Positions 26,130 through 29,217 of a stretch of 64,000 nt of DNA are shown here, piece by piece (positions within the stretch are counted from its first letter, which is position 1; each line of letters starts with the position of its first letter). The position numbers were made by a program, and so were the translations under genes. A model generated the notes under the pieces. The model was not told the DNA's origin and ran no database searches. It saw nothing but the letters and a program-made list of their open reading frames with translations. The stretch is from Pseudomonadota bacterium (GTDB lineage: Bacteria; Pseudomonadota; Gammaproteobacteria; Pseudomonadales; Pseudomonadaceae). The DNA is taken from positions 25,469-89,468 of the forward strand of contig JAEYXX010000061.1 of assembly GCA_023431055.1 (NCBI GenBank), in the 5' to 3' direction.

Positions 26130-26143
26130 TCGCTGTAGATATG

Positions 26144-26176
26144 AGCCGGAGCAGTCAAGGCTGCTCCGGCTTTTTT
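26144..26176 (+). terminator. terminator after slyB
   Basis: The 11-base arms AGCCGGAGCAG (26144-26154) and CTGCTCCGGCT (26161-26171) enclose TCAAGG and run into T residues to 26176. It isolates slyB from the sha operon. Confidence 0.9.
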
Positions 26177-26260
26177 GTGTCCGGCTATAGTGGTGGGGCG
26201 GTCGTCGCAGCGCTGAATCGACATGCGTGTAACCAAGTGTGTTCAACGATAATTCAATGC

Positions 26261-26289
26261 ATGACGTTGCGTTGATAGTTATGGATAAT
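26261..26289 (+). promoter_or_regulatory. candidate sigma-70 promoter of the sha operon
   Basis: ATGACG (26261-26266) and GATAAT (26284-26289) are separated by 17 bases and match the -35 and -10 hexamers at four and five of six positions. Transcription would start near 26296, giving a leader of about 129 bases. Prediction from sequence only. Confidence 0.4.
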
Positions 26290-26295
26290 CGGCCG

Positions 26296-26424
26296 TTATG
26301 CTTGTGCCGACAACGACTTAGCTGATCCGTTGTGGTGCATGAACTATCACCGTCAGGGAGTTGCGACTCCAGTTCTCGTAGCTGGATCACACGACCTGAC
26401 GTGCCTGCATAAGGGGTTTTTCCG
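26296..26424 (+). ncRNA. structured leader of the sha operon
   Basis: This untranslated leader can form a stem ACAACG/CGTTGT (26310-26315, 26328-26333). Farther on lies a closing stem CGTCAGG (26351-26357) with CCTGACG (26395-26401) that encloses two hairpins: GAGT-ACTC (26358-26361, 26366-26369) and CAG-CTG (26370-26372, 26382-26384). That makes a compact three-way junction ending 23 bases before the shaA start and 10 bases before its AAGGGG ribosome binding site. No known riboswitch class is recognised. Confidence 0.4.
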
Positions 26425-29217
26425 ATGGCGCTTGCGCTGATTGTCGCCTTGCCATTTCTTGGTTTATTTCTGCCGGTACTCACCGAGCGGCTTGGACGCT
26501 CGGCCTGTGCTGCGGCTGCGGCTCTCGCGCCCGTGGTGGCGCTGGTGCTGCTGTTCAACCACCAATCGGCGGTGTTCGCCGGTGAGGTGCTGCGGGTCAA
26601 ACTGGAGTGGTTGCCGCACCTGGGGCTGAATCTCAGTCTGCGCCTCGATGGCCTGGGCTTTCTGTTTGCCCTGCTGATTCTCGGCATCGGCCTGCTGGTC
26701 ATCCTCTACGCGCGCTATTACCTGGCCAAGACCGAGCCCATGGGGCGTTTCTTCGCGTTCCTGCTGCTGTTCATGGGCGCCATGCTCGGTGTGGTGCTGT
26801 CGGAAAACCTGCTGCTGATGCTGATGTTCTGGGAGCTGACCAGCCTGTCGTCGTTCCTGCTGATCGGCTTCTGGGGTTCGCGCTCCGATGCCCGCAAGGG
26901 CGCGCGCATGGCGCTGGCAATCACCGGTGGCGGTGGTCTGGCGCTGCTCGCCGGTATCCTGCTGATCGGCCACATCGCCGGTAGCTTTGAGCTGTCGCAG
27001 GTGCTGGCCGCCGGCTATGCCATCCGCGCGCACGAGTTGTATCCGGTGGCGCTGGTGCTGGTGCTGCTGGGTGTGTTCACCAAGTCGGCGCAATTCCCGT
27101 TCCACTTCTGGCTGCCGCACGCCATGGCGGCGCCGACGCCGGTATCGGCCTATCTGCACTCGGCGACCATGGTCAAGGCCGGGGTATTTCTGCTGGCGCG
27201 CCTGTACCCGGCACTGGCCGGTTCCGAGTGGTGGTTCTACATGGTCAGCATGACCGGCCTGGCCACGCTGCTGGTAGGCGCATGCATGGCGCTGTTCCAG
27301 CATGACCTCAAGGGTCTGCTGGCTTATTCGACCATCAGCCACCTGGGCCTGATCACCCTGCTGTTCGGCCTGGATACCCGCCTGGCTGCGGTAGCGGCGG
27401 TGTTCCACATCATCAACCACGCGACCTTTAAGGCTTCGCTGTTCATGGCCGCGGGCATCATCGACCACGAAACCGGTAGCCGCGACATGCGGCGAATAAA
27501 CGGCTTGTGGAAGTACATGCCGCATACGGCGGTGCTGGCGATGGTGGCGGCTTCGGCCATGGCAGGCGTGCCGCTGCTCAATGGCTTTTTGAGCAAGGAG
27601 ATGTTCTTCACCGAAACCTTGCACCAGCACCTGCTGGGCGGTTTCAACTGGGTGATTCCGGCTGCCGCGACCCTGGCCGGCGTGTTCTCGGTAGCCTACT
27701 CGCTGCGTTTCATTCACGACGTGTTCTTCAATGGCGAGCCGATCGACCTGCCCAAATATCCGCCGCACGAGCCGCCGCGCTACATGAAGGTGCCGGTCGA
27801 GGTGCTGGTGTTCCTCTGCCTGCTGGTCGGCATCGTGCCTGCCTATACGGTAGCGCCGTTGTTGGCCGCCGCCGCCGCTTCGACCCTGGGTGGCGAGCTG
27901 CCTGAGTACAGCCTGGCCATCTGGCACGGCTTCAACCTGCCGCTCCTGATGAGTTTCGTTGCGCTGTTCGGCGGGATCATCGTCTATGCCTGTCGCAAGC
28001 CGCTGTTCCGCTGGTATGAAGGTTTGCCCAACCTGGATGCCAAGGATGCCTTTGACCAGGTGGTGCGTTACTCGACGCGCTTGGCCGTGCGCATTACCGC
28101 GCTGCTGGAAAGTGGCTCGCAGCAGCGTTACCTGGCCTGGATGCTGGGCAGTGCCCTGACCCTGGTGATCATCGCGCTGTCGCCGCTCGAGCAGTTGACC
28201 GGTAGCGTGGCGATGACGCCGATCGATCCGCTGACCGTCACGGGAATGTTGATCCTGATGGTGACTGCGGTGCTCACCGTGGTTTTCCACCGCCGCCGCC
28301 TGGTGGCGCTGATGATCCTCAGCGCCGCTGGTCTGATGGTGGCACTGGCCTTCGCCCGCTTCTCCGCTCCGGATCTGGCGCTGACCCAGCTGTCGGTCGA
28401 GGTGGTGACCATCATTCTGCTGATGCTGACCCTGTATTTCATGACTGATCGTACCCCGGCCGAGTCCAGCAGCCTGCGCGGCCTGCGCGACCTGGTCTTG
28501 GCCCTGGGCAGCGGCACCATGGTGGCGATGCTGACCTACGCCGTGCTGACCCGGCCTTATCAGAGCATCTCGTCGTTCTTCCTCGAGAACAGCGTCTCTG
28601 GTGGTGGCGGTACCAATGTGGTCAACGTGATCCTGGTGGACTTCCGCGGCTTCGATACCCTCGGCGAGATCACCGTGCTGGCGATCGCCGCCATCGGCAT
28701 CTACGCGCTGCTGCATGGCCTGCACCTGCCGCATCCGACTCATGACAAGAACGGCCGACCCTGGTCGACCGATGCCCACCCGATGATCCTCGACAACCTG
28801 GCGCGCGCCATGCTGCCGATGGCGCTGCTGATTTCGGCGTTCATCTTCCTGCGTGGTCACAACCTGCCGGGTGGCGGCTTCATCGCCGGCCTGATCACCT
28901 CGGTGGCGTTGATCCTGCAGTACATCTCCCACGGTGTGACCTGGACCCAGGAGCGCCTAAAGTTCAGCTATCACGCCACCGCCGGCTGGGGCGTGCTGAT
29001 CGCCGGGCTGACCGGCCTGGGCAGTTGGGCGTTCGGCTCGCCGTTCCTGACCTCGGCGTTCGGTCATTTCCATATTCCGCTGATCGGCGAAATCGAGCTG
29101 GCGACCGCGATCCTCTTCGATCTCGGGGTATTCCTGGCGGTCGTCGGCGCGACCCTGCTGATTCTTTCCAATATCGGCCATGTCAGTCAGGACGAGTCGT
29201 GCAAGGAGGTCATCTGA
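26425..29217 (+). CDS. shaA: Mrp/Sha antiporter fused A/B subunit (operon 2)
   Basis: This 930-residue MrpA-MrpB fusion is the large subunit of a Na+/H+ antiporter. Glu137 (M-F-W-E-L-T-S), Lys220 (F-T-K-S-A-Q), His245 and Lys251 are the conserved proton-path residues. The MrpB part shows [13 protein letters not shown]. The start follows AAGGGG and a structured leader. P. aeruginosa PA1054 is the equivalent. In that species sha mutants are sodium-sensitive and attenuated. The fusion type is the same as in the first operon, but the sequences differ widely. Confidence 0.93.

Follow-up and report, generated by a model that had tools for sequence, protein, structure and literature searches.

In the window, the whole 64,000-nucleotide stretch of DNA analysed here, the gene shaA is preceded by a genuine leader element that is structured and under selection. 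On balance, we favor the reading that it represents one clade's version of a previously undescribed family of structured leaders of sha in Pseudomonas, which diverges rapidly and would probably be cis-regulatory. Such a structured mRNA leader has so far been seen only in Pseudomonas, the sole genus in which genome-wide model searches were run. With a defined leader that contains a conserved core and a strong structural model for its sister version, RNA control of the sha operon is directly testable.

Promoter and conserved leader of the sha operon

Sha/Mrp antiporters have roles in Na+ and pH homeostasis. The sha operon of the window consists of six genes, encoding subunits A, C, D, E, F, and G, of which shaA is the first. 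The locus comprises the following features:

26143 to 26172, + strand: intrinsic-terminator-like hairpin closing the upstream gene, with a T run after its stem of 13 pairs
26249 to 26292, + strand: conserved promoter block with a -35-like ATGACG (26261-26266) and a -10-like GATAAT (26284-26289) at 17-nt spacing
26304 to 26338, + strand: hairpin P1, in which 26304-26308 and 26310-26315 pair with 26328-26338, with a conserved loop
26349 to 26378, + strand: near-invariant core (mean pairwise divergence, 0.055)
26411 to 26416, + strand: Shine-Dalgarno (SD) sequence AAGGGG of shaA, with the start ATG at 26425
26425 to 29217, + strand: shaA/mrpA, 930 amino acids, NF009288 monovalent cation/H+ antiporter subunit A (1429 bits against a cut-off of 1104)

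An earlier note on this DNA had described the SD sequence and start codon as well as a plausible promoter at 26261-26289, and both descriptions hold. The promoter-like ATGACG-N17-GATAAT is present and conserved, and its spacing is fixed in most related upstream regions. The terminator-like hairpin after the upstream gene indicates that shaA probably begins its own transcription unit and that the promoter is well placed; the leader is presumably transcribed from it. Among 107 unique shaA upstream regions, 62 contain the -10 block with at most one mismatch and six are without a match within five mismatches, while none of the 107 shuffled controls matched with fewer than five. ATGACG was found in 75 of the 92 upstream regions whose -10 block has at most three mismatches. 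Within the promoter block lies an imperfect palindrome, GATAGTTATGGATAATC, and a similar one precedes shaA of Stutzerimonas. An exact match occurs once in each of five of the six genomes tested, and the best match in the sixth has two mismatches. Judged by its sequence, the block with its palindrome resembles a promoter combined with a possible operator. Strong down-regulation of the sha operon by tobramycin has been described for P. aeruginosa, with no leader named in the available part of that report (PMC8120321).

Named related loci, of which the best 80 of 228 were considered, place the window in the genus Pseudomonas. Relatives of the leader were collected by a DNA search of 298 Pseudomonas genomes, 27 of which matched, and 23 mendocina-group leaders including that of the window were aligned (alignment A1). 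Divergence was computed over 136 pairs from 17 of these leaders and amounted to 0.057 in the promoter, 0.088 in the P1 region (26296-26340), and 0.055 in the core, compared with 0.261 at fourfold-degenerate shaA sites and 0.463 in the upstream spacer. The promoter, P1, and the 30-base core are thus 3 to 5 times less divergent than the fourfold-degenerate sites; the value for the P3 region (26379-26402; see below) is 0.293. Since divergence is far below that of silent shaA sites, the leader is selected at the nucleotide level.

This conservation from promoter to P1 might also act at the level of DNA, through a promoter and operator reaching to about +40, with the remainder folding by chance. 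The strongly conserved, imperfectly palindromic promoter block with its single exact match in five of six genomes would suit such an arrangement, and the 5' bases TGCCGACAA..CTTAG are common to clades with differing predicted hairpins at this place. However, the core lies about 60 nt further downstream, across a less conserved linker, and RNA covariation is seen in P3 as well as in the sister leader. We consider a DNA-level explanation decidedly unlikely.

Competing predicted folds of the core

Several helices were considered for the core and the bases behind it:

26351 to 26357, + strand: closing stem, 5' strand; no both-sided change, mismatch in 10 of 23 leaders
26395 to 26401, + strand: closing stem, 3' strand, most of which is also the 3' strand of P3
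26368 to 26386, + strand: hairpin Rb', in which 26368-26373 pairs with 26381-26386, forming the arm inside the closing stem in the window's lineage
26356 to 26377, + strand: alternative hairpin P2, 26356-26363 with 26370-26377, which competes with the hairpins of the earlier note; no both-sided change
26381 to 26400, + strand: alternative hairpin P3, which covaries in relatives and has six of eight pairs left in the window

For the window, a closing stem of seven pairs holding two hairpins in a three-way junction had been proposed, preceded by a further hairpin. The stem, CGTCAGG (26351-26357) with CCTGACG (26395-26401), is perfect and is predicted to form in the 129-nt leader, with ensemble pair probabilities of 0.76 for the outermost pair and 1.0 for 26354-26398; the upstream hairpin 26310-26333 is predicted as well (0.999 for 26312-26331). 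The three-way junction, on the other hand, is not the stable fold of this sequence. Over the same 51 bases, the two-hairpin junction reaches -12.2 kcal/mol versus -24.1 kcal/mol for the best fold, in which the closing stem encloses one extended arm on the second hairpin (26371-26383; probability, 0.999). The first hairpin of the junction, GAGU-UGCG-ACUC, has a probability of 0.0 in the window leader. By eye, loop-core and loop-SD pseudoknots are visible as candidates, and the bases involved hardly vary.

The 129-nt leader folds better than its shuffled versions (z = -2.45; 3 of 200 shuffles as good), and a z as good occurred in 7% of 60 random 129-nt stretches from the window. Folding energy was rejected as proof of a structured RNA, since most relatives are ordinary (z averages -0.94 over 17 leaders, among them that of the window). 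Folding energy alone is weak evidence, and comparative evidence is better.

Compensatory base changes, the check suggested in the earlier note, were absent from the closing stem, weak for hairpin 26310-26333 (one pair), and found in a different hairpin, P3. In none of the 23 leaders does the closing stem have a pair with both-sided change, and 8 leaders carry an A-C opposition at one of its pairs. P1 has one compensatory pair (in L012) and mismatches in L032, L039, L003, and L075, not every pair being kept in 7 of the 23 leaders. As a cross-clade hairpin P1 was rejected, because these 5' bases take up other predicted folds elsewhere among the clades.

RNAalifold proposed a set of three hairpins, namely, P1, P2 inside the core, and P3 behind it. 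Across the 23 leaders, this set shows both-sided changes in 5 of 27 pairs (7 of 500 shuffles as high) and in 13 cells (0 of 500), while the previously proposed stems yield one such pair (441 of 500) and four cells (20 of 500). Four of the eight P3 pairs carry both-sided changes. Six of eight P3 pairs are kept in the window, L001, and L031, and seven of eight in six other leaders; according to the alignment, the changes in the first three strengthen the arm held by the closing stem. The core itself is nearly invariant, so that its pairing is beyond test by covariation.

Leader L126, found later by a model search and left out of A1, has its P3 region replaced. Both P2 and P3 are broken, which ruled out a single fold for all mendocina leaders; all seven closing-stem pairs can form, and the best fold is the junction of the earlier note with a different second hairpin. 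As one conserved junction, the three stems are not supported by the 23 leaders; L126 is predicted to adopt this architecture. In the held-out leaders L115, L120, and L122, P3 and the closing stem are both complete.

A 25-leader alignment adds L120 and L126 and omits L115 and L122, apparent duplicates of L033 and L036. Its counts serve as guides, since the shuffle tests ignore relatedness and P2 plus P3 was derived from 23 of the tested leaders. P2 plus P3 has 93.7% of cells paired, with both-sided changes in four pairs, an unexceptional number for these two hairpins alone (132 of 500 shuffles), and in 12 cells (0 of 500). The closing stem with its arm has 92.3% of cells paired, one both-sided pair (437 of 500), and four cells (10 of 500), and the junction with a shortened stem has 96.0%, three pairs (140 of 500), and nine cells (0 of 500). 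All 25 leaders retain the outer four closing-stem pairs, without both-sided change. When those pairs of each fold that are able to form were forced in the core domain, the energy of P2 plus P3 differed from that of the ensemble by at most 3 kcal/mol in 12 of 25 leaders; the same held for the closing stem with its arm in 12 and for the junction in one. The three-helix junction with shortened stem (four closing pairs, first hairpin, and inner P3) was rejected, since forcing its closing pairs and first hairpin costs at least 3.4 kcal/mol in 24 of 25 leaders. We read these results as pointing to mutually exclusive folds, with different lineages favoring different ones.

The proposal that the leader senses ions or pH, with the closing stem and its two hairpins as the switch, can be judged from these comparisons. 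The seven pairs are perfect in the window, all seven can form in L126, which folds into the junction although its P3 region is replaced, the outer four are kept throughout, and the substitutions in the window, L001, and L031 reinforce the arm within the stem; yet the same stem is without both-sided change and tolerates the A-C opposition in 8 and some mismatch in 10 of the 23 leaders, its first hairpin is absent from the window ensemble, forcing the junction costs 3.4 to 12.9 kcal/mol in 24 of 25 leaders, and there is no sign of SD sequestration. We therefore regard this sensing junction as very unlikely. The idea of ion or pH sensing comes only from the identity of the downstream gene, and for the window sequence the exact junction and ligand of the earlier note are not supported. 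Similarly improbable to us is a new class of bistable cis-regulatory RNA of sha/mrp in Pseudomonas, in which the core would swap partners on an ion, pH, or osmotic signal and the recurrent A-C opposition of the closing stem could be a protonatable pair.

Sister version and distribution of the leader

A separate alignment (A3) comprises ten leaders from other Pseudomonas, each about 250 nt long. Related bases (TGCCGACAAAGGCTTAG) mark their start, a similar promoter precedes them, and examples are located as follows:

L108, 1248 to 1500; L089, 1255 to 1500; L015, 1542 to 1808: sister-clade long shaA leaders, folding z down to -6.7

In their consensus structure, a closing helix joins the 5' end to GUUUGGACGC. 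The other elements are three internal helices and two hairpins, a long one and a terminal one, the latter situated shortly before the SD sequence. Both-sided changes occur in 14 of 50 pairs and in 25 cells, each reached in 0 of 500 shuffles, and the closing helix shows one-sided changes only. The covariation far exceeds every slid control, a comparison in which the structure is favored over its slid versions because it comes from the same alignment.

A covariance model of the 3' part of the sister leader (R2) was run on 396 genomes with stricter filters that lose weak matches and found 13 genomes at E values up to 0.05. In 12 of these, the match lies directly before shaA, and in three of the 12 the long hairpin was also partly matched on the opposite strand; the thirteenth is G273 (E = 0.022). 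In 32 other sources, R2 detected six shaA leaders absent from its build (E ≤ 1.1e-4). With the alignment fitted to the model, three of them keep 14 of 16 pairs of the long hairpin, with six to eight both-sided changes, and the other three keep 11 to 12 of 16, with two to five such changes; of the nine pairs of the terminal hairpin, the six leaders keep 8, 6, 7, 8, 4, and 4. The sister version is the stronger case and a better candidate RNA family than that of the window.

The window-type leader was modeled from 22 mendocina leaders (R1), and a search of 398 Pseudomonas genomes, using the same kind of strict filters, matched 33 at E values up to 1. Strong matches were obtained in 16 of the 398 genomes (E ≤ 2.2e-30), one per genome and each adjoining the shaA start, and every strong match whose place was compared lies directly before shaA. 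The matches in the remaining 17 genomes are weak (E ≥ 0.001), that in G188 falling in the shaA leader. ShaA-like N termini are present in 384 of the 398 genomes, but R1 is strong in only 16, which indicates that the leader element belongs to one group. The N-terminal matches listed form two classes: 60 show 72 to 99% identity, and after a gap further ones follow at 49 to 57%.

No single model unites the mendocina version with that of the sister clade: R1 reached a best E value of 0.02 on the sister loci, and R2 gave no match in the window up to an E value of 10 and one of 0.4 on L075. As R2 misses the window leader, common descent of the two versions would be argued from promoter, 5' bases, and position only.

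Other shaA leaders were also inspected. Those of P. argentinensis, P. flavescens, and their kin (L045, L049, L051, and L053) are about 285 nt long, mutually alike, and unlike the window's sequence; folding z ranged from -1.6 to 0.4 in four leaders of this length (L045, L051, L053, and L063). Stutzerimonas leaders (L064, L068, and L095) are about 90 nt long, and by eye many end in a G+C-rich hairpin abutting the SD sequence. These hairpins were rejected as a shared structure, since the alignment captures a three-pair base only (mean z of 29 leaders, -0.73).

Possible mode of action and comparison with known RNAs

The SD sequence of the window is not unusually hidden, its opening energy being 4.49 kcal/mol compared with 4.22 ± 1.63 kcal/mol in shuffled leaders. 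In 13 of 16 leaders the opening energy is below the shuffled mean, with the reservation that energy models cannot exclude an expression platform. The predicted folds close the SD sequence no more than those of shuffled leaders, so that no excess of sequestration was seen, and no terminator-like site was seen within the leader. Neither standard riboswitch output is therefore visible. A leader peptide from the short frame 26339-26440 (33 codons, overlapping the shaA start) was rejected, as neither frame nor start is conserved: the frame is broken in L034, L075, and L120, the ATG is absent in L059, L075, L011, and L012, and variable columns by codon position number 20, 15, and 14 of 24, which is not coding-like.

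The near-invariant core could be a binding site that is read as sequence. It would then be the target of a factor acting in trans, either a small RNA or an RsmA/CsrA-like RNA-binding protein, and the folds would merely present it. GGA is the heart of RsmA sites, and the core contains one such triplet and is almost invariant whichever fold is assumed, but a single GGA is a weak signal and the covariation of P3 would be left unexplained. A 16-nt complement of the core matches exactly only at the locus itself in four genomes, and with one or two mismatches there are 10 other matches versus 18 for the reversed control. A trans-acting partner was accordingly rejected as a candidate, there being no excess of complements in the four genomes, and we rate the trans-target reading as unlikely. 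One-mismatch complements of the core recur in three of the four genomes (G249:C1:3408116-3408131, G001:C17:116940-116955, and G256:C1:3049819-3049834).

For the preferred cis-regulatory reading, the following course is conceivable. Transcribed from a conserved promoter of its own, the region would serve as the 5' untranslated leader of the sha (mrp) operon and would most likely affect, in cis, how the sha mRNA is translated or how stable it is. Its core may pair in mutually exclusive ways, i.e., closing stem with Rb' arm, closing stem with junction, or P2 with P3, and ribosome loading might be altered when the pairing changes or when a partner binds the core.

The earlier statement that no known riboswitch class is recognised agrees with the Rfam search, in which no match reached the gathering score either in the window or in 20 related loci. 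At E values up to 5, the single match in 26130-26500 (E = 0.97) falls on the upstream terminator. No description of RNA control of sha/mrp antiporters was found in the open-licence literature.

Several structured RNAs are nevertheless comparable. The Pseudomonas motifs rmf, gyrA, gabT, Pseudomon-groES, and Pseudomon-Rho are structured RNAs as well, with rmf in possible 5' UTRs, but these survey motifs concern other genes; the word antiporter is absent from the available text of the survey (PMC2864571). The window leader has no Rfam match at threshold. The Li+-I and Li+-II riboswitches (nhaA-I and nhaA-II motifs) occupy leaders of cation/proton antiporter genes, and a Pseudomonas monteilii nhaA example was probed; the genes named in the available text are nhaA, nhaD, and oadG, with no mention of mrp there (PMC9646797). 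Assuming that nhaA-I and nhaA-II are contained in the Rfam copy used (RF03038 is cited in the same source, as far as its text was available), neither matched the leader, and under the same assumption the Na+-I (DUF1646) model gave no match in the leader at E values up to 5. The word Pseudomonas is absent from the main text of the Na+-I riboswitch paper, and according to the available part of that study ligand binding was demonstrated for Na+-I (PMC9337991). Like the leader described here, the Na+-I riboswitch (DUF1646 motif) is a structured mRNA leader before Na+ transport genes, and the available text of the same study includes Na+/H+ antiporter genes among its targets (PMC9337991).
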